64,000 nucleotides of DNA from Umezawaea tangerina. GTDB taxonomy: Bacteria; Actinomycetota; Actinomycetes; Mycobacteriales; Pseudonocardiaceae. The translations under genes were made by a program, and so were the position numbers. The DNA lies in assembly GCF_003002815.1 (NCBI RefSeq), contig NZ_PVTF01000016.1, positions 124,001-188,000 on the forward strand. The letters run 5' to 3'. Position 1 is the stretch's first letter, and each line of letters opens with the position of its first letter. Shown piece after piece: positions 1-18,325 of this stretch. The notes below the pieces were generated by a model. The model was not told where the DNA came from. It ran no database searches and worked only from the letters and a program-made list of their open reading frames with translations.

Positions 1-2416
1 CGGTCTCGGCGTGCACCGCCACCATCGCGGCCAGTCCGCCCGCGCAGCCGTCGACCACCGACGACGACTCGTCGTCGATGTCGGAGGCCAACTCGACGCA
101 GGCTTCGAGCCAACGGGGCAGCTCTGGGTCTTCGGGCAGGATCGTGGACAGCCTGGCGAGCGCGTAGGCGATGCCGCCCAGGCCGTGGAAGCCGCCGCTG
201 CCGACGGCCGGGGCCAGCTCGGGGTCGGCGGCCAGCGCGTCGAGCAGGCCGGGGATCGGCCGCAGCGCGTCGCGGGCGAAGTCGGTGTACCGCTCGGCGC
301 CGGTCAGCGCGCCCAGCTGGGCCAGGAACAGCGCGACGCCGGTGTAGCCGTTCGACATCCCGGCGCCCATCGGCATGACGGTCCAGTGCCGGTCGTCCAC
401 CAGTTCCAGGCCCAGCCAGTTGACCCGGTCCCCGTCGACGGTGGCGTGCGCCAGGACCTCGTCGGCGATGCCGCAGGCCGCGACCAGCAGCCGCTGCGGG
501 TCGGGCACCCCGGCCGCGACCCGTCCGGGCACGACGGCGGCGCCGCGGTGCGCGACCGTCCCCGTCCTGCTGGCCAGCGACGCGGCGATGAGCCACTGCT
601 GGTCGTGCCGGTCGACCTCGTCCATCCCGGCGATCTTGCGCTCGGCGGCCTCCAGGCCGGACAGCGGCAGCAGGTCGGGGACGCGCAGGCCGTGGGCGGT
701 CCAGACGTCCCGGCTGCCGGGCCGCACGGTGAACAGCGGCACGTCGCCCGCCCACAGGTCGGCCAGTTCGTGCGGGACCAGCGCGCGCAGCAGCGCGTCG
801 TCGCGGGCCTCGGTCCACAGCAGGTCCAGCGCCAGGTCGCGGTCCAGCGCGTCGCGCGCCACGTCCGGGTGCGTCGTCTCGTCCAGCGCGGTCGCGTACG
901 TGCGGGTGGCCCGCGTGACGAACCGCACCGGCACGTCGGCGCACGTCCGCAGCAGCTCCAGCAGCTCGGCGCGGTGGGCGCAGATCGTGTCGTGGCCGAC
1001 GCGGAACCCGGCCAGCAGCGCGGTCTGGTAGTCGCCGGGCTCGGCCTCCTCGCCGCCGAGCCGGGGCCGGTTGTGGGCGCCCGTGCTCGGCGCGGGGCGG
1101 CGGACCAGCCGCATGGTGTCGGTGGCGGGGTCCGCCCAGTCGACCGTCTCGGCGGGGTAGTTCGCGCCGTCGTGGTCGCCGCCGAGGCCGGACAGGTCGA
1201 ACACGCCGTGGTCGCCCAGCAGCATCTGGGGCAGCAGCGCGGTGCGCGTGACCGAGTTCGCCAGCGCGTTCGCCGCCGGGTCCGAGCTCGGCGCGGCGGT
1301 CAGCAGCGTCGGGTGGAACAGGGTCTCGATGTCGATCAGCACCGGCTGGTCGCCGCACGCGATCAGGTTCTCGTAGTGCATGTCCGTGCCGTCCACGGCG
1401 TAGACCAGGGCCAGGACCGCGCCGAGCCGGTGGTAGAACCGGCCGATCCCGCTGACCTCGGAGCACTCCTCGTGCTCGACGAACTCGACCCAGCCGTAGT
1501 CGTCGCCGCGCACGATCCGCACCCGGCGCAGACCCAGCCGGGTGTGGCCGTCCAGCCAGCCCAGCATCTCGTTGAACCGGACGTGCAGGTCGATCGGGCG
1601 CGGCTTGTAGACCAGCCGCGAGCCGTCGGCGAACCGCAGCGTGCACACCGTGCGGCCGCGACCGTGGCAGTCGCCCTGGCCGGACTCCACCGCGATGATC
1701 GCGCCGGGGTCCACGCCGTCGAGCAGCTCCGCCACGATCCGGTCGCGGTCGGCGGCGAACCGGTCGAGCATCTCGCCGTGCGCCTCCGCGGCGTGCAGGC
1801 AGGTCTGGCTGAGCATCCGCGCCAGCACCGGGTAGCGGGCCAGCAGGTCGGACAGGTCGACGCCGTTCACGAAGCAGGTGAACCGGTCGGCCGGGGTCGC
1901 GCCGACCAGCTCGCCGCGCTGCCGGGCCAGGTTCAGCTCGAGCACCAGGGTGCGGGCCGCGGTGCGGACCAGCCGGGACGTCAGCCGTTCGGTGAACGCG
2001 CTGTCCAGGCGAGCGTCGGTGGCGGCCGCCGCGGCGGCGAGCGGGCGCAGGACGTGGGCGAAGCCGGACTGCCAGGTACCACCGGTGTGCGGAGCGGGGG
2101 GCGCGTCCGTGGTGGCGCGTTCCACGAACGCGGCCCACTCCGGCCGCCCGGTGCGGGCGGCCAGCTCCAGGGGTGGTTCGCCCAGCAGGGCGGCCAGCGC
2201 GTCCTCGTCGAGACCCGCGTCGGCGAGCCGGGCGGCGAACCACTCGGCGGTGTCGTGCGCGGCCTTCCACTTCGCCAGCCGCGCGCTCGTCCGCCCGCTG
2301 GGCGCGGGCGGCCGTTCCGCGAGGCGGAGGCCACCCGCCCACCAGGTGGTGGGTCGCGGCGCGGCGGGTGAGGAGGTCACGGGGAAGACGGTGTCACCTG
2401 CGCCGCGGTTCGACAT
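1..2416 (-). CDS. lanM: class II lanthipeptide synthetase LanM, partial (C-terminus cut by window edge)
   Basis: LanM enzymes dehydrate Ser/Thr in a ribosomal precursor peptide and then cyclise them with Cys in the cytoplasm. Reading the minus strand from ATG at 2416 gives about 805 open codons. The DUF4135 dehydratase region shows the kinase-like motifs LVYKPRP, GTDMHYENLIA and LIDIETLFHP. The start of the LanC-like cyclase shows GFHGLGGIAYALA and DGCAGGLAAMV. LanM proteins are usually about 1000 residues, so some 200 residues, including the zinc ligands, lie left of the window. The gene diverges from the glutamate mutase/NRPS operon. No precursor peptide is visible here, so this may belong to a separate cluster extending leftwards. 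The start is uncertain because a GC-rich hairpin abuts the ATG; an in-frame GTG 12 codons downstream is an alternative. Confidence 0.9.
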   Translation of the reverse strand, partial: MSNRGAGDTVFPVTSSPAAPRPTTWWAGGLRLAERPPAPSGRTSARLAKWKAAHDTAEWFAARLADAGLDEDALAALLGEPPLELAARTGRPEWAAFVERATTDAPPAPHTGGTWQSGFAHVLRPLAAAAAATDARLDSAFTERLTSRLVRTAARTLVLELNLARQRGELVGATPADRFTCFVNGVDLSDLLARYPVLARMLSQTCLHAAEAHGEMLDRFAADRDRIVAELLDGVDPGAIIAVESGQGDCHGRGRTVCTLRFADGSRLVYKPRPIDLHVRFNEMLGWLDGHTRLGLRRVRIVRGDDYGWVEFVEHEECSEVSGIGRFYHRLGAVLALVYAVDGTDMHYENLIACGDQPVLIDIETLFHPTLLTAAPSSDPAANALANSVTRTALLPQMLLGDHGVFDLSGLGGDHDGANYPAETVDWADPATDTMRLVRRPAPSTGAHNRPRLGGEEAEPGDYQTALLAGFRVGHDTICAHRAELLELLRTCADVPVRFVTRATRTYATALDETTHPDVARDALDRDLALDLLWTEARDDALLRALVPHELADLWAGDVPLFTVRPGSRDVWTAHGLRVPDLLPLSGLEAAERKIAGMDEVDRHDQQWLIAASLASRTGTVAHRGAAVVPGRVAAGVPDPQRLLVAACGIADEVLAHATVDGDRVNWLGLELVDDRHWTVMPMGAGMSNGYTGVALFLAQLGALTGAERYTDFARDALRPIPGLLDALAADPELAPAVGSGGFHGLGGIAYALARLSTILPEDPELPRWLEACVELASDIDDESSSVVDGCAGGLAAMVAVHAET

Positions 2417-2431
2417 GGGGGCTTCGCCCCC
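2417..2431. repeat. perfect 6-bp-stem hairpin with TTC/GAA triloop at the lanM start
   Basis: GGGGGC-TTC-GCCCCC is a perfect inverted repeat directly before the lanM ATG. In the lanM transcript it would form a stem with a GAA loop where the ribosome-binding site should be. Similar short stems with GAA or GCA loops occur near 19983-20059 and at 28342-28356. It may be a dispersed small palindrome or a translational control element; I cannot tell which. Confidence 0.6.
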
Positions 2432-2487
2432 AGATTCGCACCGCACCCCCGTCGGTCGGTCCCGTGCCAGGTCAGGACGGAATGTGG

Positions 2488-2567: not shown

Positions 2568-3008
2568 ATGGAGCTTGAGAAGAGAGAGTTCACCGTCCTG
2601 GTCAGCAGCGTCGCCTCGGACTCGCACACCTGGAACCTGGTCTTCCTGCAGCTGCTGCTGGAGGAGCTGGGCCACCGCGTGGTGAACATCGGCGCCTGCG
2701 TCCCGGACGACCTGCTGATCGCCTCCTGCGTTCGGCACCGGCCGGACCTGGTCGTCATCAGCAGCGTGAACGGCCACGGCCACCACGACGGCGTCCGCGT
2801 CATCAACGAGCTGCGGTCGCACCCCGACCTCATCGGGACACCGGTGGTGATCGGCGGCAAGCTGGGGATCGGCGGTGTCGACAACGCGCGGCACACCGAC
2901 GACCTGCTGCGCGCCGGGTTCGACGCCGTGTTCGACGACAGCGCCCCGATCGCGGCGTTCCGGGAGTACGTGGACGCGCTGGGCGCGCTGACCGCGGTGA
3001 CGGCATGA
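2568..3008 (+). CDS. cobalamin-binding small subunit of a glutamate (methylaspartate) mutase
   Basis: This 146-residue protein is a B12-binding Rossmann domain like GlmS/MutS of glutamate mutase, which with the large subunit rearranges L-glutamate to (2S,3S)-3-methylaspartate. The N-terminus has the base-off B12 signature around D18-x-H20 (SDSHTWN), with His20 as expected axial ligand; the Gly of the classic DxHxxG is Asn23. VISSVNGHGHHDG and VVIGGKLGIGG follow as the nucleotide-loop segments. The ATG at 2568 begins the conserved core, although the frame stays open upstream. The stop overlaps the next gene (ATGA at 3005), as expected for a coupled heterotetramer. Stand-alone small subunits of this type supply 3-methylaspartate units in secondary metabolism. 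Confidence 0.88.
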   Translation: MELEKREFTVLVSSVASDSHTWNLVFLQLLLEELGHRVVNIGACVPDDLLIASCVRHRPDLVVISSVNGHGHHDGVRVINELRSHPDLIGTPVVIGGKLGIGGVDNARHTDDLLRAGFDAVFDDSAPIAAFREYVDALGALTAVTA

Positions 3009-5284
3009 GCCGGATCGCGCACCAGGTGTCCTCGGCCGTCGCGTTCGGCGACTTCGTGGCCGAGGCCGCCGCCGCGGGCCGCCTGGTCGTGCAGCCGAGG
3101 ATGGGGTTCAGCGATCCGGGCCAGATGCGGTCCGGGCTGATCGCCACCAAGCTCGCCGACGCGACCACGGTCGGCACGATCACCCTGGACAGCTACACCC
3201 GCGTCGGTGCCGACGGCGAGGCCCGCCGCGCGCTGGCCGAGGGCGTCGCGCTCAACGGCTACCCGATCGTCGCCCACGAGCCCAGCACGACCGCCGCGGT
3301 CGTGGAAGGCCTGCGGGGCCGGGGTTTCCCGGTGCAGATCCGGCACGGCTCGGCCCACCCGGAGCCGATCGTGGCGGCGCTGCTCGGCGCCGGGTTCACC
3401 GCGACCGAGGGCGGCCCGGTGTCCTACTGCCTGCCCTACAGCAGGCTGCCGCTGCGCGACTCGGTGGACAACTGGTCGCGGTCCTGCGAGCTGCTGGCCG
3501 CGGTGCCCGACGCGCACCTGGAGACGTTCGGCGGCTGCATGATGGGCCAGCTGTGCCCGCCGAGCCTGCTGGTCGCGATCTCGGTGCTGGAGGGGATCTT
3601 CTTCCGGCGGCACGGGCTGCGCAGCATCTCGCTGAGCTACGCCCAGCAGACCGACGCGGGCCAGGACGAGGACGCCATGCGCGCCCTGCGCAGGCTGGGC
3701 CGGGAGTTCCTCGACGGCGTGCAGTGGCACGTCGTGGTCTACGCCTACATGGGCGTCTACCCGCGCACCCCGAAGGGCGCGCTGAGCCTGCTCGCGGGCG
3801 CGGCCCGGCTGGCGGCGCGCACCGGCGGGGCCCGGCTGATCGTGAAGACCGTCGCCGAGTCCTCGCGGATCCCGACGATCGCGGAGAACGTGGCCGCGCT
3901 CGAGCACGCCGCCCGCGCGGCGGAACGGGCCGGGACCGCACCGGCGGGCGACGACGACAGCGCCGTGTACCAGGAGGCCCGCGCGATCGTGGACGCGGTG
4001 CTGGACCTCGACCCCGACCTGGGCCGCGGTCTCGTCCGCGCCTTCGAGCTCGGCTACCTGGACGTGCCGTACTGCCTGCACCCCGACAACGCGGGCCGCA
4101 CCCGCGGGCACGTCGACGGTGCCGGGCGCCTCGCGTGGAGCCGGATCGGCGCGCTGCCGATCGGCCACCTCGTGACCCCACCCCGTGCCGAGGGCATGAC
4201 CTCGGCGACGTTGCTGACCGCTCTGACCCACGTGGAGCGGACGTTCGACGACGAACGACTGGAGAGGACCGCGCAGATGACCCTGACCACGACCACGGCG
4301 GGCACGACCACCGCACCACCGTCCCCCCGCGAGCACCTGACCTCGCCGGTGACGCGCACCGTGATGCGCGTGCAGGACAAGGCGTTGACCGCCGCCCGCG
4401 AGTACTTGCGCGACAACGGTTTCACCGAGCTGCTGCCCGCCGTCATCGGCCCGGTCACCGACCCCGGCGGCCGCGGGTCCAAGCAGGTCGACGTCGACTA
4501 CTACGGCCACCGCTACAAGCTGATGACCAGCGCCATCCTCTACAAGCAGGCGTCGCTGCTCGGCTTCGACAAGATGTTCTCCATCGCGCCCAACGTGCGG
4601 CTGGAGCCGCCGGAGACCGCGAACACCTCCCGGCACCTGGCCGAGTTCCACCAGCTCGACGTGGAGATCGCCGGTGCCAAGCGCGACGACGCGCTCAAGG
4701 TCGTCGAGGAGCTCGTCGCGGCGATGGTCGACCGGGTCGTCACCGAGATGCCCGCCGAGCTCGAGGAGCTGGGCCGCGACAAGGACGCGTTCACCGACCT
4801 GCTGTCCGGCGCGTTCGGCCGGGTCACCCACGGCGCGGCCGTCGCGGACCTGCGGGGCCTGGGCCACGCGCAGAGCGCCGACGCCGAGATCGACTGGGAG
4901 GGCGAGGCGATCCTGTCCCGCAAGTCCAGCCGCCCGTTCTTCATCACCGACTACCCCAAGGGCTCGCGCGGGTTCTACGACCGCGAGGACCCGGCCGAAC
5001 CCGGCGTGCTGCGCAACTTCGACCTGATCGCCCCCGAGGGCTTCGGCGAGCTGTGCTCCGGCAGCGAGCGGGAGTTCGAGTACGCCCGGATCGTCGCCCG
5101 GATGCGCGAGACGGGCGAGAACCCCGCCAAGTACGGCTGGTACCTGCAGATGGTCCGCGAGGGCATCCCCGCCAGCGCCGGGTTCGGCATCGGCGTCCAG
5201 CGCTTCGTGCGCTACCTGTGCGGGCTCGACGCGGTGTGGCAGGCCAGCGCCTACCCCAAGATCCCCGGCGTGGTGTCCTGGTGA
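3005..5284 (+). CDS. fusion: glutamate mutase large (epsilon) subunit + AsnRS/AspRS-derived asparagine-synthetase-like domain
   Basis: One 759-residue frame joins two enzymes. Residues 1 to about 420 match the methylaspartate mutase epsilon subunit (QPRMGF, HEPSTTAAVVEG, FGGCMMGQLCPPSLLVAIS, GVYPRTPKGA), which holds the substrate and adenosylcobalamin barrel. After a Thr/Pro-rich linker (about 425-440), residues 440-759 are a class II aminoacyl-tRNA-synthetase core of the Asn/Asp type: motif 2 around 540 (TANTSRHLAEF, then QLDVEIA) and motif 3 around 727 (GFGIGVQR). No anticodon-binding domain is present, as in stand-alone archaeal-type asparagine synthetases. I infer ATP-dependent amidation of aspartate or, here, 3-methylaspartate. 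An ATG at 4277 (residue 425) with GGAGAGG upstream could also give the C-terminal enzyme alone. Starts overlap the neighbours by 4 bp on both sides. Confidence 0.85.
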   Translation: MSRIAHQVSSAVAFGDFVAEAAAAGRLVVQPRMGFSDPGQMRSGLIATKLADATTVGTITLDSYTRVGADGEARRALAEGVALNGYPIVAHEPSTTAAVVEGLRGRGFPVQIRHGSAHPEPIVAALLGAGFTATEGGPVSYCLPYSRLPLRDSVDNWSRSCELLAAVPDAHLETFGGCMMGQLCPPSLLVAISVLEGIFFRRHGLRSISLSYAQQTDAGQDEDAMRALRRLGREFLDGVQWHVVVYAYMGVYPRTPKGALSLLAGAARLAARTGGARLIVKTVAESSRIPTIAENVAALEHAARAAERAGTAPAGDDDSAVYQEARAIVDAVLDLDPDLGRGLVRAFELGYLDVPYCLHPDNAGRTRGHVDGAGRLAWSRIGALPIGHLVTPPRAEGMTSATLLTALTHVERTFDDERLERTAQMTLTTTTAGTTTAPPSPREHLTSPVTRTVMRVQDKALTAAREYLRDNGFTELLPAVIGPVTDPGGRGSKQVDVDYYGHRYKLMTSAILYKQASLLGFDKMFSIAPNVRLEPPETANTSRHLAEFHQLDVEIAGAKRDDALKVVEELVAAMVDRVVTEMPAELEELGRDKDAFTDLLSGAFGRVTHGAAVADLRGLGHAQSADAEIDWEGEAILSRKSSRPFFITDYPKGSRGFYDREDPAEPGVLRNFDLIAPEGFGELCSGSEREFEYARIVARMRETGENPAKYGWYLQMVREGIPASAGFGIGVQRFVRYLCGLDAVWQASAYPKIPGVVSW
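4261..4279 (+). promoter_or_regulatory. possible internal ribosome-binding site and start codon inside the fusion gene
   Basis: GGAGAGG at 4261-4267 lies nine bases before an in-frame ATG at 4277, exactly at the boundary between the mutase and the synthetase-like part. It may be a relic of two formerly separate genes, or may still allow separate translation of a 335-residue C-terminal protein. Confidence 0.45.
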
Positions 5285-6543
5285 GCGGGCTGCGCGCGGA
5301 GGGCTTCCCCGAGGACGAGGTACGCGCCCGTGCCCGCGGTGGCGCGGCGTGCGCGTTCCCGCCGGTCGAGCAGTACGGCACCAGGCTGTTCGGGGCGAGC
5401 GGCACCGGGTTCGCCGACGAGCTGGACACCATGCGGCTGGTGCCGCCGGTGTTCATGCCGCAGCGGCTGGAGAAGCTGATCGACCTCGCCAGGGAACCGC
5501 TCTACGGCGACGTCGACCTGACCACGGTGGTCGGCGGCTTCCGCTCCACGATGCCGGTGTACCTGTCGGCCTTCGGGTCGACCCAGGTCGCCAGCACCGA
5601 CCTGGGGCAGGCCGCGAGCAGGCAGGCCGGGGCGCTCGGCATCCCGATGGTGATCGGCGAGAACATCGTGCCGGTCAACGGGTACGGGCGGCTCGGCACG
5701 ACGGACAAGTCGCTGCTCGAACGGATCAGCGCCTACGCGGAGACCTCGCCGGACGGCTGGGGCGGCGTCGTGGTCCAGCAGAGCACCGAGGACGCCGACG
5801 CCGAGGTGTGGAACCTGGTCTACAGCGACCTGTCGGCCCAGCCGCTGCTCGACAGCGGGCGGCTCGCGTTCGAGCTGAAGGTGGGGCAGGGCGCCAAACC
5901 CGGCCTCGGCGGCATGACCGTGCTCGACGCCGACAAGGCGGCGCGGATCGCGGAGGCGTTCGCGATCGACCCGCTGTTCGGCTCGCGGGTGCTGCGCTCC
6001 AGCAGCCCCGGCACGTTCACCGAGGAGATCCTGCACCAGCAGATCCGGTTCATGCGCAACAACTTCCCCCGCGCGAAGGTGTGGGTGAAGCTGCCGCCCG
6101 CCCGCGACATCGGCTCGGCCGTGCGGGTGGCGTGGGGAGCGGGCGCGGACGCGGTGACCGTGGACGGCGCCGAGGGCGGCACCGGCTGGGCGCCGTCGGG
6201 GTTCCTCGACCACGTCGGCCTGCCGCTGGGCGAGTGCCTGCGCCGCATCGGCGAGCCCGAGGGCTGCCTGCTGGTCACCGGCCGGATGTGGGAGGGCAGC
6301 AGGGCGGCCAAGGCCGTCGCGCTGGGCGCCCGCGCCGTCGGGCTCGGCCGGGCCGCGCTGCTGGCCGTGGACGAGGACCCCGAGGAGGGGCTGGTGCGGC
6401 TGGCCGAGTGCCTCGCGCTGGAGCTGCGGCTGCTGATCAGCTCGGTGGGCAAGTACGCGCCGTGGGCGCTGGGCTCGGAGGACGTGTGGTCCCGGCCCGC
6501 GCCCGAGCAGATCCTGCTGCCCGAGCAGGGGGTCCGGTCGTGA
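5281..6543 (+). CDS. stand-alone glutamate-synthase-type FMN domain protein (GltB-like)
   Basis: This 420-residue protein resembles the FMN-binding (beta/alpha)8 domain of glutamate synthase, without the glutaminase or the C-terminal beta-helix domains. Family hallmarks include ELKVGQGAKPGLGG, VDGAEGGTG, the early PVYLSAFGS segment and a late LGARAVGLGRAAL phosphate-binding stretch. The usual reaction is reductive transfer of ammonia to 2-oxoglutarate to form glutamate. Here it could feed glutamate to the mutase or handle nitrogen for the amidation step; both are inferences. The GTG start overlaps the previous stop (GTGA at 5281), and the gene ends overlapping the next start in the same way, so it is firmly part of the operon. 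Confidence 0.82.
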   Translation: MSGLRAEGFPEDEVRARARGGAACAFPPVEQYGTRLFGASGTGFADELDTMRLVPPVFMPQRLEKLIDLAREPLYGDVDLTTVVGGFRSTMPVYLSAFGSTQVASTDLGQAASRQAGALGIPMVIGENIVPVNGYGRLGTTDKSLLERISAYAETSPDGWGGVVVQQSTEDADAEVWNLVYSDLSAQPLLDSGRLAFELKVGQGAKPGLGGMTVLDADKAARIAEAFAIDPLFGSRVLRSSSPGTFTEEILHQQIRFMRNNFPRAKVWVKLPPARDIGSAVRVAWGAGADAVTVDGAEGGTGWAPSGFLDHVGLPLGECLRRIGEPEGCLLVTGRMWEGSRAAKAVALGARAVGLGRAALLAVDEDPEEGLVRLAECLALELRLLISSVGKYAPWALGSEDVWSRPAPEQILLPEQGVRS

Positions 6544-6902
6544 GCGGCGTCCGGTGGGGCCGCGGCCGCGAGGTGTGGTCGCCGGTCGAGGCGTTCCTGC
6601 TGCTCGGCAGGGCGGGCGCGGAGCCGCTGCCGGTCCGGGCCCGTGCCGGGGGCACCCGCCGCCACGGCGTGCGGGCCGTGCCCTCCCCGTCCGACGGCGC
6701 GCCGTCGACGATCCAGGCAGGCGACCGCCGTCGGTCACCGGCCAGGCGGTTCGTGGTCCTCGGCCCCGAGGACCCGGTGCCGTCCACCGTCCGGGCGGGC
6801 GCGGCCGCCGCGGTCTTCGCCCGCGCCGCGACCGACCGCGCCCGCCGCGTGGTCGTGCCGTTCCGGCTTTTCCCGTTGCCGCACCAGGAGGTCAGGTCGT
6901 GA
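6540..6902 (+). CDS. hypothetical protein, 120 residues, inside the biosynthetic operon
   Basis: I do not recognise this protein. It has no signal peptide and no membrane segment, and is rich in Arg, Ala and Pro. It starts [13 protein letters not shown], has a loose middle (about residues 35-65), and ends with a more ordered stretch containing [16 protein letters not shown] and [14 protein letters not shown]. The GTG start overlaps the preceding stop by 4 bp and its own stop overlaps the exporter start, so translation is probably coupled to genes of known role. It could be a small accessory subunit of the FMN protein or of the fusion enzyme. That it is real is supported by the spacing more than by sequence. 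Confidence 0.6.
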
Positions 6903-8209
6903 CGACCACGGAGACCAACCCCGCCGACACGGCGGTGCAGGACCCGCCGAGGCGGCGCGGCGGCCTGCTGTGGCACCGGGACTTCCGGCTGCTGTGGGCG
7001 GGCGAGACGATCAGCAAGATCGGCGGCACGGTCACCGCCGTCGCGGTCTCCCTGGTCGCCGTCGACGTGCTGGACGCGGGCGGCTTCGAGATGGGGCTGC
7101 TGCGCGCGATGTCGTGGGTGCCGTGGCTGCTGATCGGCCTGCCCGCGGGCGCCTGGACCGACCGGATGCGGCGCAGGCCGGTGATGGTGACCGTCGACCT
7201 GGTGTCGATGCTGCTGTTCCTCAGCGTGCCGATCGCCGCGTGGGCCGGTGCGCTCACGATGACCCAGCTGCTCGTGGTGACCCTGCTCGCCGGGGTCGGG
7301 CAGGTGTTCTTCAGCGCCGCCTACCAGGCCTACCTGCCGACCGTCGTCGACAAGGAGGACCTGGCCGAGGGCAACGCGAAGCTCGCGGGCAGCGAGCAGG
7401 TCGCGATGGTCGCGGGCCCCGGTCTCGGCGGCCTGGTCGTCCAGGCGCTCGGCGCGGCCACGGGTCTGCTGACCCAGGCCGTCGGGTTCCTGGTCTCGGC
7501 GGTCTGCCTGCGGGCCATCCGGGCGCAGGAGCCGCCGGTCGAGCGCAAGGCCGTGCGGACGACGCTGCGCAAGGACATCGGCGAGGGCCTGCGCTACGTC
7601 GTGCGCGACCCGTACCTGCGGGTGCTGGCGCTGTGCAGCGCGGTCGACAACCTCACGCTCAGCGGCGCCCAGGCCCTGCTGGTGATCTTCCTGTTCCGCG
7701 AGGTCGGCGAGGGTCCGAGCACGGTCGGCCTGCTGATCGGCGCCGACGCGCTCGGCGGCGTGCTCGGCGCGCTCATCGCCACCCGGATCGTGAAGCGCTT
7801 CGGCTCCGGCCGCGCGCTGCTGCTGGCCGCGCTCGGCGCCACCCCGTTCGGCCTGCTCATCCCGCTCACCCAGCCCGGCTACGGACTCGTGTTCTTCGTG
7901 CTGGGCCTGATGATCCCGTCCGTCGGCATCGTCGTGATGAACGTCGTCGTCAACGGCTTCCGCCAGTCCTACTGCCCGCCGGACCTGCTCGGCCGCATCT
8001 TCACCAGCTCGCGGTTCGTCGCCTTCGGGGTCATCCCGATCGGCGCGCTGCTCGGCGGCGTCCTGGCCGACGCCATCGGCATCCGCGAGGCCATGTGGGT
8101 CCTGCTGGCCGCCACCGCGCTCGGCAAGCTCCTGCGCCTGCTCGGCCCGTTCCGCTCGCAGCGCGTCCTGCCCACCGAACCCCCCACCGCAGAAGAGGTC
8201 TCCCGATGA
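6899..8209 (+). CDS. MFS efflux transporter
   Basis: This 436-residue protein has about twelve hydrophobic segments and resembles the MFS_3/enterobactin-exporter type of drug or peptide efflux pump. The N-terminal cytoplasmic end is short and charged and is followed by [15 protein letters not shown]. Loop 2-3 carries the family motif as [13 protein letters not shown]. The position between the precursor-supply genes and the MbtH/NRPS genes suggests export of the NRPS product, possibly as self-resistance. The GTG start overlaps the previous stop, and its TGA overlaps the ATG of the MbtH gene. Confidence 0.85.
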
Positions 8210-8424
8210 GCGTCAACCCGTTCGAGCAGGAAGACGGCGTCTACCTGGTCCTCGTCAACGCCGAGCGGCAGCACTCGCTCTGGCCCGCGGCGATCGAGAT
8301 CCCGTCCGGCTGGACCGCCGTGCACGGCGAGGGCACCCGCCAGGCCTGCCTCGACTACGTCGAGACCCACTGGACCGACCTCCGTCCCGCCAGCCTCGTC
8401 GCGGCGATGGCCGCCTCCAACTGA
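8206..8424 (+). CDS. MbtH-like protein
   Basis: At 72 residues with [25 protein letters not shown] and the WTDLRP end, this is a canonical MbtH-like protein. These small partners bind NRPS adenylation domains and help them fold and work. It overlaps the exporter stop by 4 bp and lies 31 bp before the first NRPS, the usual place for such genes. All the conserved Trp residues are present. Confidence 0.95.
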
Positions 8425-8455: not shown

Positions 8456-11400
8456 GTGATCCCCCTGTCCTTCGCCCAGCGCCGGTTGTGGTTCCTCGGT
8501 CAGCTCGGGGAGGGTGTCGCCTACAACGTGCCGTTCGCGGTCCGGTTGCGGGGCGCGCTCAACCGCGAGGCCCTGCGGGTCGCGCTGGCCGACGTCGTCG
8601 CGCGCCACGAGGCGCTGCGCACGGTGTTCCCGGTCGCCGACGACGAGCCGTACCAACGGATCCTGGAGCCCGGCGAGGCGTCACCCGAGCTGACCGTGGT
8701 CGAGCTGGACGAGTCGGGACTGGCCGACGCGCTGACCGGGTTCACCGGCCACCACTTCGACCTCGCCGTCGACCTGCCGATCCGGGCGTGGCTGTTCGGC
8801 GTCGGCGCCGACGAGCACGTGCTCCTGGTGGTGGTGCACCACATCGCGAGCGACGGCTGGTCGATGGGCCCGTTCCTGCGCGACCTCGGCATCGCCTACC
8901 AGTCGCGCTGCGCCGACGACCGGCCGGTGTGGGAGCCGCTGCCGGTGGAGTACGCCGACTACACGTTGTGGCAGCAGGAGCTGCTGGGCGACGCGGACGA
9001 CCCGGAGAGCCTGCTGGCCGCGCAGCTCAAGTACTGGACCGGTGCCCTGGAGGGGATTCCGGGCGAGCTGGCGCTGCCGGTGGACCGGCCGCGGCCCAGC
9101 GCCACCAGCAACCGCGGCGAGGTCCACGGGTTCCGCGTCGACCCCGAGCTGCACACCGCGCTGACCGAGCTGGCCCGCTCGTCGGGCACGACGCTGTTCA
9201 TGGTGCTGCAGGCCGGTGTCGCGGCCCTGCTGACCAGGCTCGGCGCCGGGGACGACGTGCCGGTCGGCTCGGTCGTGGCGGGCCGCACCGACGAGGCGCT
9301 CGACGACCTGGTCGGGTTCTTCGTCAACACGGTGGTGCTGCGCACCGACGTCTCGGGCAACCCCACGTTCAACGACCTGCTGGCACGGGTCCGCGAGACG
9401 GACCTGGCGGCCTACGCCCACCAGGAGATCCCGTTCGAACGGCTCGTCGAGGCCATCAACCCGGCCCGCTCGCTGGCGCGGCACCCGCTGTTCCAGGTGA
9501 TGCTGGTGCTGCAGAACAACAGCAAGGCCGCGCTGGAGTTCCCCGGCCTCGCGGTGAGCCCGGAGATCGTGCGCACCGGCTCGTCGAAGTTCGACCTGAT
9601 GTTCGGCTTCGAGGAGACCTCGGCGGGCATCGGCGGCGCGATCGAGTACGCCACCGACCTGTTCGACCGCTCCACGATCGCCGCGCTCGCCACCCGGCTG
9701 GTCCGGGTGCTCACCCAGGCCGTGCGCGACCCCGACTCCCGCGTCGGCCTGATCGACGTGCTCGACGACGACGAGCGCCGCGTCCTGGGCGTGACGTGGA
9801 ACAGCACGGACGTCGACATCCCGGCCGACCGGTGCCTGCACGAGCTGTTCGAGGAGCAGGCCCACCGCACGCCGGACTCGATCGCGGTGGTCCACGAGGG
9901 CGCCGAGATCGGCTACGGCGAGCTGAACGCGGCCGCGAACCAGCTGGCGCACCACCTGGTGCGGCGCGGGGTGCGCCCCGGCGACCTCGTCGGCGTCTAC
10001 CTCGACCGCGGCCCCGAGCTGGTCGCCGCGCTGCTCGCGGTGCTCAAGGCCGGTGCCGGCTACACCATGCTGGACCCCAAGTTCCCGGCCGACCGGCTCA
10101 CCGGCGTGCTCACCGACGCGGGCGTGCGGACCGTGGTCACCCGCCGCGGCCTGGCGAACCGGCTCGAGGGCGCGCCCGTGGACTGCGTGCGGACCGACCT
10201 GGACGGCGCGCTGATCGGCCGCGAGTCCGCTGGCGACCTGGAGGGCCTCGGCCACCCGGACACCGTCGCCTGCGTCATGTTCACCTCCGGCTCCACCGGC
10301 AAGCCCAAGGGCGTGGCCACCTCGCACCGCGGCCTCGTCGGCACCTACCTCGGCCAGGAGTACCTCCACTTCGGACCGGACGAGGTGTTCCTCCAGTGCT
10401 CGCCGGTCTCCTGGGACGCGTTCGCGCTGGAGGTCTTCGGGCCGCTGCTGCACGGCGGCACCACGGTGTTGCAGGCCGGGCAGAACCCGGAGCCGTCGGT
10501 GATGGCCGCCCTGGTGGCCAAGCACGACGTCACCGCGCTGCAGATGTCCGCGAGCCTGTTCAACTTCATGCTCGACGAGTACCCGGACGTGTTCAAGGTC
10601 GTCCGGCAGGCCATGACCGGCGGCGAGGCGGCCTCGGTCGCGCACGTCGCCAAGGCGCTGCGCGAGTTCCCCGGCATCCGCGTGATCAACGGCTACGGCC
10701 CGGCCGAGAGCATGGGCTTCACCACCGTGCACGAGGTCGTCGAGCCGGACCTGGACCGGCACTCGATCCCGATCGGCAAGCCCATCGGCAACAAGCGCGC
10801 CTACGTGCTGGACCGCTCGCTCGGGCTGACCCCGGTCGGCGTCGTCGGTGAGCTCTACGTCGGCGGTATCGGCCTGGCGCAGGGGTACGTGGGCCGTCCC
10901 GGCCTGACCGCGGAGCGGTTCGTCGCGTCCCCGTTCGGCGGCGGCGAACGCCTCTACCGCACCGGTGACCTCGTCCGGTGGACCGCGCAGGGCGTGCTGG
11001 AGTACATCGGCCGGGTCGACGACCAGGTCAAGGTGCGCGGGTTCCGGGTCGAGCCGGGCGAGATCGAGGCCGCGCTGATGCGGCACGACGCCGTCGGCCA
11101 GGCGGCCGTGCTGGTGCGCGAGGACCGGCCCGGCGACCAGCGGCTCGTCGCCTACGTCGTCGGCGAGGTGGAGTCCGGCGACCTGCGCGACCACCTGACC
11201 GGGCTGCTGCCCGAGCACATGATCCCGTCCGCGTTCGTGGTGCTGGACGCGCTTCCGCTGACACCCAACGGGAAGCTCGACAAGCGGGCGCTGCCAGCGC
11301 CGGACTTCGCGGCGGCGGTCACCGGCCGCAAGCCGCGCACCCCGCAGGAGGAAGTCCTCTGCGGACTGTACGCGGAGGTGCTGGGGCTGCAGGAGGTCGG

Positions 11401-11593
11401 CATCGACGACAGCTTCTTCGACCTGGGCGGCCACTCGCTGCTCGCCACCCGGCTGATCAGCCGCGTGCGCACGGCACTGGGCGTGGAGCTGTCCATCCGG
11501 GCGATCTTCGAGGCGCCCACCGTCGCCGGGCTCGCCGAACGCGTCGGCGGCGCGGCCAAGGCCCGTCCGGCGCTGCGCCGCAGGGCGAGGTAG
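8456..11593 (+). CDS. non-ribosomal peptide synthetase, one module (C-A-T)
   Basis: This is a 1045-residue cytoplasmic NRPS. A condensation domain occupies roughly residues 1-430 (HHIASDG near 128). The adenylation domain spans about 455-960 (TSGSTGKPKG near 610, [15 protein letters not shown]). The carrier domain has its phosphopantetheine serine at S994 (GGHSLL). Hand alignment to GrsA-Phe gives the binding-pocket code DALQMGGGFK, resembling Val-type codes but with Gln where Trp is usual; I would call only a small aliphatic substrate. A condensation domain at the start of the first module suggests an acylated first residue or an upstream donor outside the operon. There is no epimerase or methyltransferase. 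Start is GTG at 8456 with GAGGAG upstream. Confidence 0.93.
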   Translation: MIPLSFAQRRLWFLGQLGEGVAYNVPFAVRLRGALNREALRVALADVVARHEALRTVFPVADDEPYQRILEPGEASPELTVVELDESGLADALTGFTGHHFDLAVDLPIRAWLFGVGADEHVLLVVVHHIASDGWSMGPFLRDLGIAYQSRCADDRPVWEPLPVEYADYTLWQQELLGDADDPESLLAAQLKYWTGALEGIPGELALPVDRPRPSATSNRGEVHGFRVDPELHTALTELARSSGTTLFMVLQAGVAALLTRLGAGDDVPVGSVVAGRTDEALDDLVGFFVNTVVLRTDVSGNPTFNDLLARVRETDLAAYAHQEIPFERLVEAINPARSLARHPLFQVMLVLQNNSKAALEFPGLAVSPEIVRTGSSKFDLMFGFEETSAGIGGAIEYATDLFDRSTIAALATRLVRVLTQAVRDPDSRVGLIDVLDDDERRVLGVTWNSTDVDIPADRCLHELFEEQAHRTPDSIAVVHEGAEIGYGELNAAANQLAHHLVRRGVRPGDLVGVYLDRGPELVAALLAVLKAGAGYTMLDPKFPADRLTGVLTDAGVRTVVTRRGLANRLEGAPVDCVRTDLDGALIGRESAGDLEGLGHPDTVACVMFTSGSTGKPKGVATSHRGLVGTYLGQEYLHFGPDEVFLQCSPVSWDAFALEVFGPLLHGGTTVLQAGQNPEPSVMAALVAKHDVTALQMSASLFNFMLDEYPDVFKVVRQAMTGGEAASVAHVAKALREFPGIRVINGYGPAESMGFTTVHEVVEPDLDRHSIPIGKPIGNKRAYVLDRSLGLTPVGVVGELYVGGIGLAQGYVGRPGLTAERFVASPFGGGERLYRTGDLVRWTAQGVLEYIGRVDDQVKVRGFRVEPGEIEAALMRHDAVGQAAVLVREDRPGDQRLVAYVVGEVESGDLRDHLTGLLPEHMIPSAFVVLDALPLTPNGKLDKRALPAPDFAAAVTGRKPRTPQEEVLCGLYAEVLGLQEVGIDDSFFDLGGHSLLATRLISRVRTALGVELSIRAIFEAPTVAGLAERVGGAAKARPALRRRAR

Positions 11594-11602
11594 GAGGAGA
11601 TC

Positions 11603-14600
11603 ATGGTTCCGCTGTCCCACGCGCAACGACGGCTGTGGTTCCTCAGCCGGTTCGAGACCGGATCCGCCTACCACGTGCCGTTCACCCTCCGGCTGCGCGG
11701 CGCCGTGGACGTCGGCGCGCTCCGGACGGCGGTGGCCGACGTGGCGGCCAGGCACGAGGTGCTCCGCACGGTGTTCCCCGACGTGAACGGGGTACCGGAG
11801 CAGCGGGTCCTCGACACCGCCCCGGAGCTGCGGGTCGAGCCCTACTCGGCGGAGGCGGTGCGGGCCGCGGCGGCGCTGCCGTTCGACCTCGCCGTCGACC
11901 TGCCGCTGCGGACGTGGCTCTTCGAGGTCGGGCCCGAGGAGCGGGTGCTGCTGGTGGTGGTGCACCACATCGCCAGCGACGGCTGGTCGATGGGGCTGCT
12001 GCTGGCCGGGCTCGCCGAGGCCTACGACGCCCGGCGGCACGGGCGGGCACCGGACTGGGAGCCGCTGCCCGTCCAGTACGCCGACTACACCCTGTGGCAG
12101 CTGGAGGTGCTCGGCGAGGAGGACGACCCGGACAGCGCGGTCTCCCGGCAGCTCGGCCACTGGACGCGGGTCCTGGCCGACCTGCCCGACGAGCTGGCGC
12201 TGCCCGCCGACCGGCCGCGGTCCGCGGAGTCGTCCGGTGGGTGCGGGCTGGTGCCGGTCCGGGTGTCCGCCGCGACCGGGGACGCGTTGGCGGAGCTGGC
12301 CCGCGACACCGGCGCCACGACGTTCATGGTGCTCCAGGCCGCGGTGGCGGTGCTGCTGGCCGAGCTCGGGGCGGGGGACGACATCCCGCTCGGCACGGCC
12401 GTCGCGGGCCGCACCGACGAGGCGCTCGACGAGCTGATCGGGTTCTTCGTCAACACGGTGGTGCTGCGCACCGACGTCTCCGGCGACCCGACCTTCCGCG
12501 AGCTGCTGGCACGGGTGCGCGAGCTGGACCTGACCGCGTTCGGCAACGCGGACGTGCCGTTCGAGCGGCTGGTGGAAGCGCTCAACCCGACCAGGTCGAT
12601 GGCGCGGCACCCGCTGTTCCAGGTGATGCTGGTGCTGCAGAACAACTCCGACGGCGACGTCAGCTTCCCCGGCACCGACGCCGACGTGGAGCCGGTCGGC
12701 GCGCACTCCTCGCGGTTCGACCTGACGGTGAACCTGAAGGAGCGCGCCACCGGGATCGAGGGGGTGCTGGAGTACTCCACCGACCTGTTCGACCACGGCA
12801 CCGCCGAACGGCTCGCCGCCCGCTTCGCCCTGGTGCTGGACCAGGTCGCCGCCGCGCCGGACGCGCCCGTCGGCACCGTGGACGTGCTGCTGCCCGGCGA
12901 ACGCGAACGGCTGCTGGCCGACACCGGGGCCGCCATCCCGGACTGGTGCGTGCACGAGCTCGTCGAGGAGCACGCCCGCCGCACGCCGCACGCGGTCGCG
13001 CTGGTCTTCGGCGACGAGAGCGTCACCTACGCCGAGCTGAACGCGCGGGCCAACCGCTTCGCGCACGAGCTGATCGCCGACGGCGTCCGCCGCGACGAGC
13101 TGGTCGGCGTGTGCGTGGAGCGCGGACCCGACTTCGTGGTCGCGCTGCTGGCCGTGCTCAAGACCGGCGCCGGGTACCTGCCGCTGGACCCGTCGCACCC
13201 GGCCGAGCGGATCAGGGCCGTGCTGGAGGAGGCCGGTGCGCACCGGGTCGTCACGGCGGTCCCGGACGTGTCGGCGCGCAGCCCGTACGACCCGGTCCTG
13301 GACGTCGACCCGCGCGGGATCGCCTGCGTGCTCTACACGTCCGGCTCGACCGGCGTCCCCAAGGGCGCCATGGGGTCGCACCGCTCGGTGGTGCGGACGT
13401 TCTTCGGCCAGTCGTACGTCCACTTCGGACGCGACGAGGTGTTCCTCCAGTGCGCGCCGGTGTCCTGGGACGCGGCGGTGCTGGAGCTGTTCGGCGCGCT
13501 GCTGCACGGCGGCACGTGCGTGCTGGCGCCGGGGCAGACCCCCGACCCGGCCGAGGTCGAGCGGCTGGTCGAGCGGCACGGAATCACCACGCTGTGGCTG
13601 TCCGCCGGGCTGTTCGCGGTGATGGTCGACCTGCACCCCTCGGTCTTCGGCCGGGTCCGCCAGGTGCTGACCGGCGGGGACGCGCCGTCGGTCGCGCACG
13701 TGGTGCGGGCCCGCGCGGACTTCCCGGACCTGCGGCTGGTGCACGGGTACGGGCCGGTGGAGAGCATGGTGTTCGCCACCGCGCACGAGGTCACCGCCGC
13801 CGACACCGCCGTGGTCCCGATCGGCACCCCGCTGGGCAACACCTCCGTGCACGTGCTGGACGGCCGGCTGCGGCTGGTGCCGCCCGGTGTGGTCGGCGAG
13901 GTGTACGTGGGCGGCATCGGGCTGGCCGAGGGGTACCTGGGCAGGCCGCGGCTGAGCGCGGAGCGGTTCGTGGCCTCGCCCTTCGGTGCAGGGGAACGGC
14001 TCTACCGCACCGGCGACCTCGCCCGCTGGACGTCGGCGGGAGTGCTGGAGTTCGTGGGCCGAGCCGACGACCAGGTCAAGATCCGCGGGTTCCGGGTGGA
14101 GCCCGGCGAGGTCGAGGCCGTGCTGGCCGCGCACCCGGCGGTGTCCCGCGCCGCGGTCGTCGTGCGGCCGGACTCCGCGGGGCAGAAGCAGCTCGTCGCC
14201 TACGCGGTCGCCTCGACCGACCCTGGCGCGCTCACCGAGCACCTGGCGTCGGTGCTGCCCTCGCACCTGGTGCCCGCCGCCATGCTGGTGCTCGACGCGT
14301 TGCCGTTGACCGCCAACGGGAAGCTCGACCGGGCCGCGCTGCCCGAACCCGACTTCGCCGCCGCGGTGGGCGGCCGGGCGCCGCGCACGGTCCGCGAGGA
14401 GATCCTCTGCGGACTGTTCGCCGAGGTGCTTGGTCTGCCCGCGGTCGGCGCGGACGACAGCTTCTTCGCGCTGGGCGGCCATTCCCTGCTGGCGACCAGG
14501 CTGGTCAGCCGGGTGCGGTCGGCGTTCGACGCCGAGGTGTCGATCCGCGCGGTGTTCGAGGCACCGACCCCGGCCCGGCTGGCCGCGCGGCTCGACGGCC

Positions 14601-17600
14601 CGAGCGCACGGCTCGCGCTGCGTCCGGTGGAGCGGCCCGAGCGGCCGCCGCTCTCGTTCGCCCAGCAGCGGCTGTGGTTCCTGGCCGAGCTCGGCGAGAG
14701 GTCCGCCTACAACGTGCCGTTCGCGCTGCGGCTGCGCGGGGAGCTGGACATCGCCGCGCTCGGCGCCGCGCTCAACGACGTGTCGGCGCGGCACGAGGCG
14801 CTCCGCACGGTGTTCCCGGTCGTGGACGACGAGCCCTACCAGCACGTGCACCCGGTCGGGATGGTGCCGCTGGAGGTGGCCTCCTACTCGGCCGCCGCGG
14901 TGGACTCGGCGGCCTGGTACGAGTTCGACCTGGCCACCGAGCTGCCGATCAGGGCCACCGTGCTGGAGGTCGGGCGGCGTGAGCACGTGCTCGTGCTGGT
15001 GCTGCACCACATCGCGTGCGACGGCTGGTCGCTGGGCCCGCTGCTCGGCGACCTCGGCACCGCCTACGAGGCCCGCCGCCGGGGTGTCGCGCCGGACTGG
15101 TCGCCGCTGCCCGTCGGGTACGTGGACTACGCGCTGTGGCAACGGGACCTGCTCGCCGAGGACGACCAGGTCGGCTACTGGACCTCGGTCCTGGCCGACC
15201 TGCCGGAGGAGCTGGCGCTGCCCGTCGACCGGCCGCGGCCCGCGACACCGGGCGCCGACGCCGGTCTCGTGCCGGTGCGCTGGGACGCCACTACCCGCGC
15301 CGGGCTGCTGGACCTGGCCCGCGCCACCGGGACGACGCTGTTCATGGTGCTCCAGGCCGGTCTGGCGGTGCTGCTGTCCAGGATGGGCGCCGGTGACGAC
15401 CTGCCGATCGGCACACCGGTCGCCGGGCGCACCGACGAGGCGCTCGACGACGTGGTCGGGTTCTTCGTGAACACCCTGGTGCTGCGCACCGACACCTCCG
15501 GCGACCCGAGCTTCCGGGCGCTGCTGGACCGGGTGCGCGACACCGACCTGTCCGCGTTCGGGCACGCGGACGTGCCGTTCGAGCGGCTGGTGGAAGCGCT
15601 CAACCCGACCAGGTCGATGGCGCGGCACCCGCTGTTCCAGGTGATGCTGGTGCTGCAGAACAACGCCGGCGCGTCGCTGGAGTTCCCCGGTGTCGAGGTG
15701 ACCGCGGAGCCGGTGGAGGGCGGGGCGGGCAAGTTCGACCTGAACCTCAGCCTCGGCGAGACCCCGGACGGGCTGGAGGGCGTGCTGCAGTACCGCGCGG
15801 ACCTCTTCGACCGCGGCACGGCCGAGGCGCTGGTGGCGCGGCTGGCCGCGGTGCTCGCGCAGGTCGTGGCGGACCCGGACCTGCCGGTCGGCGCGGTGGA
15901 CGTGCTGCTGCCGGGGGAGCGGGAGTCGGTCCTGGTGGAGTGGAACCGCACCGACCACCCCGTGCCCGCGCTGTCGGTGCCGGAGCTGGTCGAGGCGCAG
16001 GTCCGCCGCACCCCCGCCGCGACCGCCGTGGTCGACGGGGACACCCGGCTGTCCTACGCGGAGCTGAACGCGCGGGCGAACCGGCTGGCGCGGTCGCTGG
16101 TCGCGGCGGGCGCCGGACCGGAGCGGCGGGTGGCGCTGGTGCTGCCGCGGTCGGCCGACCTGGTCGTCGCGCTGCTCGCGGTGCTCAAGACCGGCGCCGC
16201 CTACGTCCCGGTGGAGGTCGACTACCCGGCCGACCGGATCGCCTACCTGCTGTCGGACGCGGACCCGGTGCTGGTGCTGGACTCCGTTGAGGTCCCGGAC
16301 TGCCCCGACACCGACCTCACCGACGCCGACCGGCTCACGCCGCTGCTGCCGGGGCACCCGGCCTACGTGATCTACACGTCCGGGTCGACCGGCAGGCCCA
16401 AGGGCGTGGTCGTGTCGCACGCGTCCGTGGTCGACTACCTGGCCTGGGCCGGCGACACCTACCCGAGCGCGCGCGGCGAGTCGCTGTTCCACTCGCCGAT
16501 CGCGTTCGACCTGACGGTCACCGCCGTGCACGTGCCGCTGACCGTCGGCGGCACGGTGCGGGTCACGCCGCTGGAGGGCGCGGGCGACTTCGCCTGCGGG
16601 CTGCTCAAGGCCACCCCCAGCCACCTGGCGCTGCTGGAGGAGCTGCCGGACGGGTTCTCGCCGACCGGCGACCTCGTGGTCGGCGGCGAACAGCTCCTCG
16701 GCGAGGTCCTCGACCGGTGGCGGGAGCGGCACCCGACCGCGACCGTCGTCAACGAGTACGGCCCCACCGAGGCGACCGTCGGCTGCACGTGGTCCGTGGT
16801 GCGGCCGGGGGAGTCGGTGCGGCCCGGTGCCGTGCCGATCGGGAGGCCCGCGTGGAACACGCGGGTGCACGTGCTGGACGCGGTGCTGCGTCCGGTGCCG
16901 GTCGGGGTCGTCGGCGAGCTGCACGTCGCCGGTGACGGGCTGGCGCGGGGCTACCTGGACCGGCCGGGGCTGACCGCCGCCCGGTTCGTGGCCTCGCCGT
17001 TCGGCGCGGGGGAGCGGATGTACCGCACCGGCGACCTGGTCCGGTGGCTGCCGTCCGGGGAGCTCGAGTACCTCGGACGGGTCGACGACCAGGTGAAGCT
17101 GCGCGGGTTCCGGGTGGAGCTCGGCGAGGTCGAGGCCGCCCTCACCTCGTGCCCGGAGGTCGCGCAAGCCGCCGCCGCCGTCCGCGCCGACCGGCAGCAG
17201 CTGGTCGCCTACGTCGTCCCCTCGGGCGAAGGGGTCGACACGGGGCTGCTGCGCAAGCGCCTGGCCGACGTCCTGCCGCAGCACCTGGTGCCGTCGGCCT
17301 GCGTCGTGCTGGACGCGTTGCCGTTGACGCCCAACGGCAAGCTCGACCGCGCGGCGCTGCCCGCACCGGAGCACACCGGTGGCGGGCGCGCCGCGCGGAC
17401 CCCGCGCGAGGAAGCCCTGCTGGGCCTGTACGAGGAGGTGCTGGGGGTGTCCGGAGTGGACATCGACAGCTCGTTCTTCGACCTGGGCGGCCATTCGCTG
17501 CTGGCCGTGCGGCTGATCGGGCGGATCAGGGCGGTGCTCGGCGCGGAGCCGAGCATCCGCGACCTGTTCGAGTCGCCCTCGGTCGTGGAGCTGGCGCCGC

Positions 17601-18325
17601 GGCTGGACGGCGGTGCGGGCGACCCGCTCGCGGTGCTGCTCCCGTTGCGCGCCAACGGTTCCGGCTCGCCGTTGTTCTGCGTGCACCCGGCGGCCGGGAT
17701 CAGCTGGGTGTACTCCGGTCTGCTGCGGCACGTGGACTGCCCGGTGTACGGGTTGCAGTCCCGCGGCCTCACCGAGCCCGACGCGCGCGGTGCCTCGGCC
17801 GACGAGGTCGTGAAGGACTACCTGGAGCGGATCCGGGAGGTCCAGCCCGAGGGCCCCTACCGGCTGCTCGGGTGGTCGTTCGGCGGCGGGATGGCGCACC
17901 TGCTCGCGGAACGGCTGCGCGCCGAGGGCGAGGAGGTGTCGCTGCTCGCCGTGCTGGACGGCTACCCGACCCGCGTCGACCCGTCGGTGCCACCGCTGGT
18001 CCCGGAGGACCCCGCGGCGCTGGAGGCGATGGTCCGGTCCCTCGGGCACGAGCCTTCGGTGCCCGGTGTGCCCCTGGAGGCGCTGGTCACGGTGTTCGCG
18101 CAGAACGTGAACCTGATGAGCACGGTGGCCAGCGGTCGCTACGACGGCGCGATGCTGTTCTTCGGCGCCATCGCGGACAAGGGCCCCGGCTCGCCCGCGC
18201 CCTCGGACTGGGAGCCGCACGTGGGCTCCCTCGAAGTCCGGCTCGTCGACTGCTCGCACGGCGAGATGACCGACCCGGTGGCGCTCGACGTCGTCGGTCC
18301 GGTCCTCGCCGAGCGGCTGCGGTGA
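11603..18325 (+). CDS. non-ribosomal peptide synthetase, two modules plus thioesterase (C-A-T-C-A-T-TE)
   Basis: 2240 residues. Module one has HHIASDG near 121, [10 protein letters not shown] near 580 and carrier S961. Module two has HHIACDG near 1135, [10 protein letters not shown] near 1591 and carrier S1965. A type I thioesterase ends the chain with GWSFGG (S2092), an LDGYP acid segment and a CSHGEM histidine segment. Hand-read pocket codes are DALWLGGVFK (Val-like) and DLTKVGEVGK, which matches the Asn signature. The second code fits the asparagine-synthetase-like and mutase genes upstream, so 3-methyl-Asn (or Asn) is the likely last residue. Together with the preceding NRPS the line would build a tripeptide released by the thioesterase. 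ATG at 11603 follows AGGAGG and lies 9 bp after the previous stop. Confidence 0.93.

Follow-up and report, generated by a model that had tools for sequence, protein, structure and literature searches.

Why should the large subunit of a glutamate mutase and an enzyme resembling asparagine synthetase be made as one polypeptide beside genes for nonribosomal peptide synthesis? The question is raised by a gene of Umezawaea tangerina at positions 3005–5284 (+ strand) of the window analyzed here, a stretch of 64,000 nucleotides (contig NZ_PVTF01000016.1, positions 124,001 to 188,000; assembly GCF_003002815.1). The gene encodes a protein of 759 amino acids that combines a glutamate mutase E domain with an asparagine-synthetase-A-type domain derived from asparaginyl-tRNA synthetase (AsnRS); frame, Pfam, and NCBIfam all identify it. 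The best reading, to which we assign a probability of roughly three in four, is that the fusion would combine two activities in supplying a precursor of a nonribosomal peptide, leading from glutamate through 3-methylaspartate to 3-methylasparagine.

The gene was predicted to be a single uninterrupted frame, and it is: 759 codons run from ATG to TGA with no internal stop. Its N-terminal domain (hereafter E; residues 14–390, positions 3044–4174, +) is matched by Pfam PF06368 (Met_asp_mut_E) at 271.3 bits against a cut-off of 26.6 (E-value 1.5e-80), and by a profile match to PDB 6h9e_B at 5.6e-52. The domain had been described as complete; its presence holds, but the match spans positions 7–401 of the 441 in the Pfam model. 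The C-terminal domain (hereafter A; residues 445–752, positions 4337–5260, +) is a class II synthetase core, recognized both by Pfam tRNA-synt_2 (D, K and N class; 1.5e-51) and by NCBIfam NF005052. The Pfam scan found no anticodon-binding domain in the fusion, nor any further domain beyond E and tRNA-synt_2, in agreement with the original prediction. Between the two lies a linker of about 25 residues (residues 416–441, positions 4250–4327, +), with low predicted local distance difference test (pLDDT) values and a high ratio of nonsynonymous to synonymous substitution rates (dN/dS). A second genome of the same genus (G398, one contig of 11.8 Mb) carries the whole fusion, without a stop and 93% identical to that of the window; the genus search found no match in a third (G397). 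Comparison of the two copies gave dN/dS values of 0.20 for E, 0.23 for A, and 1.6 for the linker, where the value is based on just 14 differences. By this measure E and A are both under purifying selection, and the linker reads as a free tether. An AlphaFold2 model of the fusion has a mean pLDDT of 82.9 and a predicted template modeling score of 0.60, with pLDDT below 50 at residues 418–437 in the linker and at 480–509 within A; given that score and the weakly modeled linker, the mutual placement of the domains is unsure.

The mutase half and its partner subunit resemble the clostridial enzyme at some distance. E scores 152.6 bits with the NCBIfam equivalog TIGR01503, below the cut-off of 390.1, and the clostridial subunit has 483 residues, compared with a median of 430 for E genes called in the 79 loci described below. 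The residues that we take to form the arginine claw and radical site of Clostridium cochlearium E—R66, R100, R149, E171, Y177, Y181, K326, and E330—were mapped manually onto the alignment, where all eight fall in columns invariant among 26 chosen relatives. Judging from these scores and residues, E is a divergent type of glutamate mutase E. Upstream, at positions 2568–3008 (+), lies the gene for the B12-binding sigma subunit (S; 146 amino acids), whose stop codon overlaps the fusion gene's start; it matches Pfam B12-binding (9.5e-12) and a PDB glutamate mutase S chain (4.1e-7). The arrangement thus shares with clostridial GlmE/GlmS (1cb7, 6h9e) the E fold, the eight presumed catalytic residues, and a separate S subunit, and differs in that E falls below the TIGR01503 cut-off and carries an extra domain.

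The synthetase half passes the NCBIfam model for asparagine synthetase A (NF005052, 454.6 bits; cut-off 368) and stays far under that for asnS (161.8 bits; cut-off 342.6), and its identification as AsnRS proper was rejected because of these scores and its domain content. Among 396 genomes of the phylum, proteins scoring above the NF005052 cut-off turned up in two, namely the window's own and G015, and the gene cassette under discussion is present in both. Residues R94, E96, and R295, which we take to be those of class II motifs 2 and 3, do not vary among 35 chosen A sequences. In Foldseek comparisons, the match of A to archaeal asparagine synthetase A extends over most of the latter's length (TMt 0.80–0.82), whereas the match to AsnRS covers the catalytic part only (TMt at most 0.65). 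Thus A shares with the archaeal enzyme (3p8t/3rl6) a class II core without an anticodon domain and an extensive fold match, and the related Pyrococcus furiosus protein 1nnh shares with A residues such as Q550, D552, R655, D659, and S685, which AsnRS 1x54 does not. A differs from the archaeal enzyme in being, in the window, fused to a mutase and placed in a secondary-metabolite cluster.

The fusion is genuine and recurrent. A scan of genome_contigs (84,980 species) with E and A patterns, from which the top 80 of 109 confirmed candidates were retained, gave 79 loci, and searches in the order and genus added further ones. S homologues occur in 77 of the 79 loci, and E and A are direct neighbors on the same strand in 60 of the 62 that hold A. 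Altogether, 71 distinct loci were obtained, defined as having neighboring E and A on the same strand and differing in a 300-base stretch of A. Six of these are fused, so the idea that the fusion is unique to the window was discarded: the same two-domain order, for which a search had been proposed, recurs in G398, G171, G058, G132, and L034 (a metagenome-assembled genome of Micromonosporaceae). The 65 separate pairs comprise 50 in different frames and 15 in the same frame with an intervening stop. On a quick tree of the 71 E and A rows, the fused label requires four changes, at least three of them forced by starred branches; this tree does not tell gains from losses, and long branches affect 12 rows, including a fused one.

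The junction probably retains the means for making A by itself. As described in the original prediction, a Shine-Dalgarno-like GGAGAGG (positions 4261–4267, +) precedes an in-frame internal ATG (4277–4279, +), which lies within an ATGA, 14 codons upstream of the aligned synthetase core. All six fusions keep an in-frame ATG 14–18 codons ahead of the core, and all six have GGAG between −16 and −5 of it, compared with only 7 of 534 in-frame ATGs located within E domains across the 71 loci. The suggestion that separate translation may persist is well supported by this conservation: the fusion gene is probably expressed in two forms, with the amide synthetase also synthesized separately.

A precedent for the route is provided by streptolydigin, whose side chain we take to be a methylated amide of 3-methylaspartate. 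In Streptomyces lydicus NRRL ISP-5461, the locus L064 holds A, then the flavin mononucleotide (FMN) protein gene G discussed below, and then a nonribosomal peptide synthetase (NRPS), with part of E at the locus edge on the opposite strand. This NRPS matches PDB 4gr5 with 1273 bits across its length. PDB 4GR5 is SlgN1 of streptolydigin, and because of that match L064 is taken, from its genes, as the streptolydigin cluster. According to the excerpted part of a later paper, slgE1-slgE2-slgE3 are involved in 3-methylaspartate supply, SlgE1-SlgE2 being the mutase and SlgE3 a ferredoxin-dependent glutamate synthase, and tetramic acid biosynthesis involves the methyltransferase SlgM as well as SlgZ, which is AsnRS-like (PMC5357945, citing J Bacteriol 193:4214 and 193:2647 for the SlgE/SlgZ work). 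Annotation and position lead us to assign A to SlgZ and G to SlgE3; the A of the window is 71% identical to that of L064. By analogy, then, the path from glutamate to 3-methylaspartate and its amide is the known streptolydigin route, and the window gene joins two of its enzymes. Since the route is already known, the novelty lies in the joint protein as a new arrangement. The earlier proposal that the fusion implies consecutive reactions was therefore right in that the two activities belong together, as the adjacency of E and A and the use of mutase and SlgZ for the same tetramic acid (PMC5357945, in excerpt) indicate, but not in presenting the route as undescribed. Likewise, the statement that no such enzyme had been described stands for the fused architecture and not for the route: neither an E–A fusion nor 3-methylasparagine biosynthesis is named in any title or abstract among the literature matches listed.

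The window holds S, E, SlgZ-type A, and SlgE3-type G beside NRPS genes, a cassette type anchored by SlgN1 in L064. It shares with the streptolydigin system these four gene types adjoining an NRPS with a SlgN1-like adenylation code. It differs in that E and A are one polypeptide, whereas in S. lydicus they are separate, non-adjacent, and on opposite strands, and in that no polyketide synthase was noted among the gene calls near the cassette, of which a part was scanned. The adenylation codes were taken from a motif alignment of 68 adenylation-domain stretches. An NRPS gene at positions 8456–11593 (+) has the code DALQMGGGF, near the DALQIGGGF of SlgN1 in L064, and a second at 11603–18325 (+) has two adenylation domains with the codes DALWLGGVF and DLTKVGEVG. 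We take DLTK-GEVG to be the asparagine type, aspartate codes presumably having H in place of E.

Combining these observations, the N-terminal half, together with the separate S subunit and adenosylcobalamin, would convert L-glutamate to (2S,3S)-3-methylaspartate. The C-terminal half would then use ATP to adenylate the side-chain (beta) carboxylate, and ammonia, the presumed nitrogen donor, would displace AMP to yield 3-methylasparagine, which could be taken up by one of the adjacent adenylation domains. Initiation at the internal start would yield the amide synthetase alone, so that the two activities need not be present at a 1:1 ratio. Such a fusion would offer a single ready-made protein for building blocks of the 3-methylasparagine type, and a clean test case for channeling between a mutase and an amide synthetase.

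Several observations weigh against this reading. The S protein of the window has DSHTWN, with Asn at the last Gly of what we take to be the B12-binding motif, DxHxxG; among the S proteins, DxHTWN occurs in 101 of 104 and DxHxxG in none of 104. An attempt to prove residue by residue that A belongs with the asparagine synthetases and not with AsnRS also failed. The 126 conserved A columns for which both reference chains could be aligned divide into 38 shared with both, 36 shared with neither, 27 shared only with the asparagine synthetase-type 1nnh, and 25 shared only with AsnRS 1x54, so that overall A is no nearer to the archaeal enzyme than to AsnRS. In addition, 1x54 outscores 3p8t; together with the column split, this means that the reaction is not settled by sequence alone. 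For the DALQMGGGF domain, the score with LgrA, the linear gramicidin synthetase, is slightly above that with SlgN1 (637 against 614 bits). Finally, the SlgE/SlgZ precedent rests on a citing paper known in excerpt (PMC5357945). The remaining adverse points bear on particular alternatives and are given with them.

The most serious alternative arises from a gene that the original prediction missed. At positions 5281–6543 (+), with a GTG start overlapping the stop of the fusion gene, lies an SlgE3-type FMN protein of 420 amino acids (G), matched partially by both Pfam Glu_synthase (3.2e-21) and FMN_dh (6.9e-13). G accompanies A more strictly than the mutase does. Among the 79 loci, all of which have E, A and G are both present in 62 and both absent in 17, and neither is ever found alone. 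In the 62 loci with both, the distance between A and G is no more than 300 bases in 56, 342 bases in 1, and 1.5–2.5 kb in 5. A search of 397 genomes of the order detected A in 21, and exactly these 21 also gave a match to G (cut-offs E ≤ 1e-60 for A and ≤ 1e-20 for G; the best 4 or 5 candidates scored per genome). In vicenistatin-type macrolactam clusters, glutamate mutase supplies 3-methylaspartate; compared with these on genes only, the 17 mutase loci without A all lack G as well, and 15 of the 17 have a neighbor resembling a pyridoxal phosphate (PLP)-dependent decarboxylase. Because G is missing from every mutase locus that lacks A, it is unlikely to be a mere glutamate supplier, and we read this as a sign that it works with A, perhaps by oxidation or by ammonia supply. 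This pairing is a more surprising lead than the fusion itself, and the tie between the synthetase half and an SlgE3-type FMN protein is possibly new.

A and G may thus form a two-enzyme module independent of the mutase, in which A would adenylate an aspartate-type acid and G would oxidize the product to an unnamed compound, or free ammonia and feed it to the adenylate by way of its FMN site; the mutase would merely set which acid is supplied. SlgE3 would then be no glutamate synthase, and the fusion would join a mutase to the module's entry enzyme, two forms being made from one gene. We hold this tentatively, as a real contender that nevertheless falls short of an even chance. It is favored by the co-occurrence of A and G and by the genome G295, where an A–G pair (L157, G295:C1:1446000-1465900) adjoins an NRPS and a PLP decarboxylase and where no glutamate mutase match was found among all 20 candidates scored; a pair in such a genome suggests that the substrate of A need not always be 3-methylaspartate, which also counts against precursor supply through 3-methylasparagine as the general role of A. 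The character of G points the same way. We take a glutaminase domain and 3Fe-4S cysteines of the form C-x5-C-x4-C to be hallmarks of ferredoxin-dependent glutamate synthases; the Pfam scan found no match to a glutaminase domain in G, and the cysteine motif occurs in 0 of 66 G proteins, also on a loose reading. The nearest matches of a G model (mean pLDDT 78) are FMN hydroxyacid oxidases, with type 2 isopentenyl diphosphate isomerase (IDI-2) also found (best 50 of 742 matches), but these fold matches are loose, with root-mean-square deviations of about 6–11 Å. On these features, a role for SlgE3-type G as a glutamate synthase is doubtful; the genome comparison thus casts doubt on the role reported for SlgE3 in streptolydigin, and it names a specific partner for that protein. 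Against an A–G module, G retains the glutamate synthase stretch QGAKPG-GG, and streptolydigin is not known to show any obvious extra oxidation in the unit concerned. Coupling is also not necessary, given the five loci in which G stands 1.5–2.5 kb from A and the genome G058, whose second A and G flank NRPS genes and are encoded on opposite strands. The glutamate synthase role in glutamate supply is, moreover, the one stated in the excerpted source (PMC5357945).

A second alternative retains the mutase step of the precursor-supply reading and moves the amidation, which would act as tailoring on a carrier-bound or later intermediate after an NRPS has activated 3-methylaspartate. Reviews give 3-methylaspartate and not its amide as the substrate of SlgN1 (PMC11253843, PMC11355689), which weighs against free 3-methylasparagine and means that amidation may follow activation. 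This order of events is nonetheless unlikely: mutase fusion in about four lineages favors a free, small substrate, and the window has an Asn-type adenylation code. It is far less probable still that the C-terminal half, as a tRNA synthetase-like copy of AsnRS, serves in resistance or regulation. The top-scoring PDB sequence for A is indeed an archaeal AsnRS, a further point against the amide synthetase assignment, but the missing match to an anticodon-binding domain, the contrast between the asnS and asparagine synthetase A scores, and the partnership with G all speak against such a copy. Lastly, an assembly or sequencing artefact hiding a junction stop is scarcely credible: the ATGA at 4277–4280 resembles a stop/start overlap one frame off (TGA at 4278–4280 in the +1 frame), and 28 of the 65 unfused distinct loci start the synthetase at −4 of the mutase stop in just this manner, so that a single-base error could mimic a fusion, but the open, 93% identical fusion in the single-contig genome G398 answers the objection of a hidden stop near 4277 and leads us to reject the artefact, and four other loci are fused as well.

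Around the cassette, the window further contains a major facilitator superfamily exporter (6899–8209, +; best NCBIfam TIGR00900, 231.8 bits, under the cut-off of 319.6) and a small gene (8206–8424, +) that clustered with similar genes, has no NCBIfam match, and is tentatively named MbtH-like from the look of its sequence. On the other side lies a LanM-type class II lanthipeptide synthetase gene (window 2–2446, −, continued at L115:17139-17998; full-length copy at L113:4940-8217, TIGR03897 713.8 bits). In the window and in G398, this LanM-type gene and a small precursor-like gene (82 amino acids) stand divergently beside the cassette, and in Streptomyces narbonensis and S. gardneri (L052, L054) the cassette is adjoined by genes that resemble them, as judged by similarity only.

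Elsewhere the cassette has other neighbors. In L034, L068, and L070, it adjoins cupin-like and MetRS-like genes, with an N-hydroxylase-like gene also present in L068 and L070, and no NRPS was found within the fetched stretch of these three loci; the neighbors are named from the look of their sequences, and the setting is, we presume, as in N–N bond pathways. In ten further loci (L038, L039, L043, L086, L093, L096, L100, L104, L107, and L108), two genes that we take to be SbnA/SbnB-like and to serve diaminopropionate synthesis come directly after the cassette. The flanking NRPS of these ten loci has the code DLTKVGEVG and, in most, also DAWFLGNVV.

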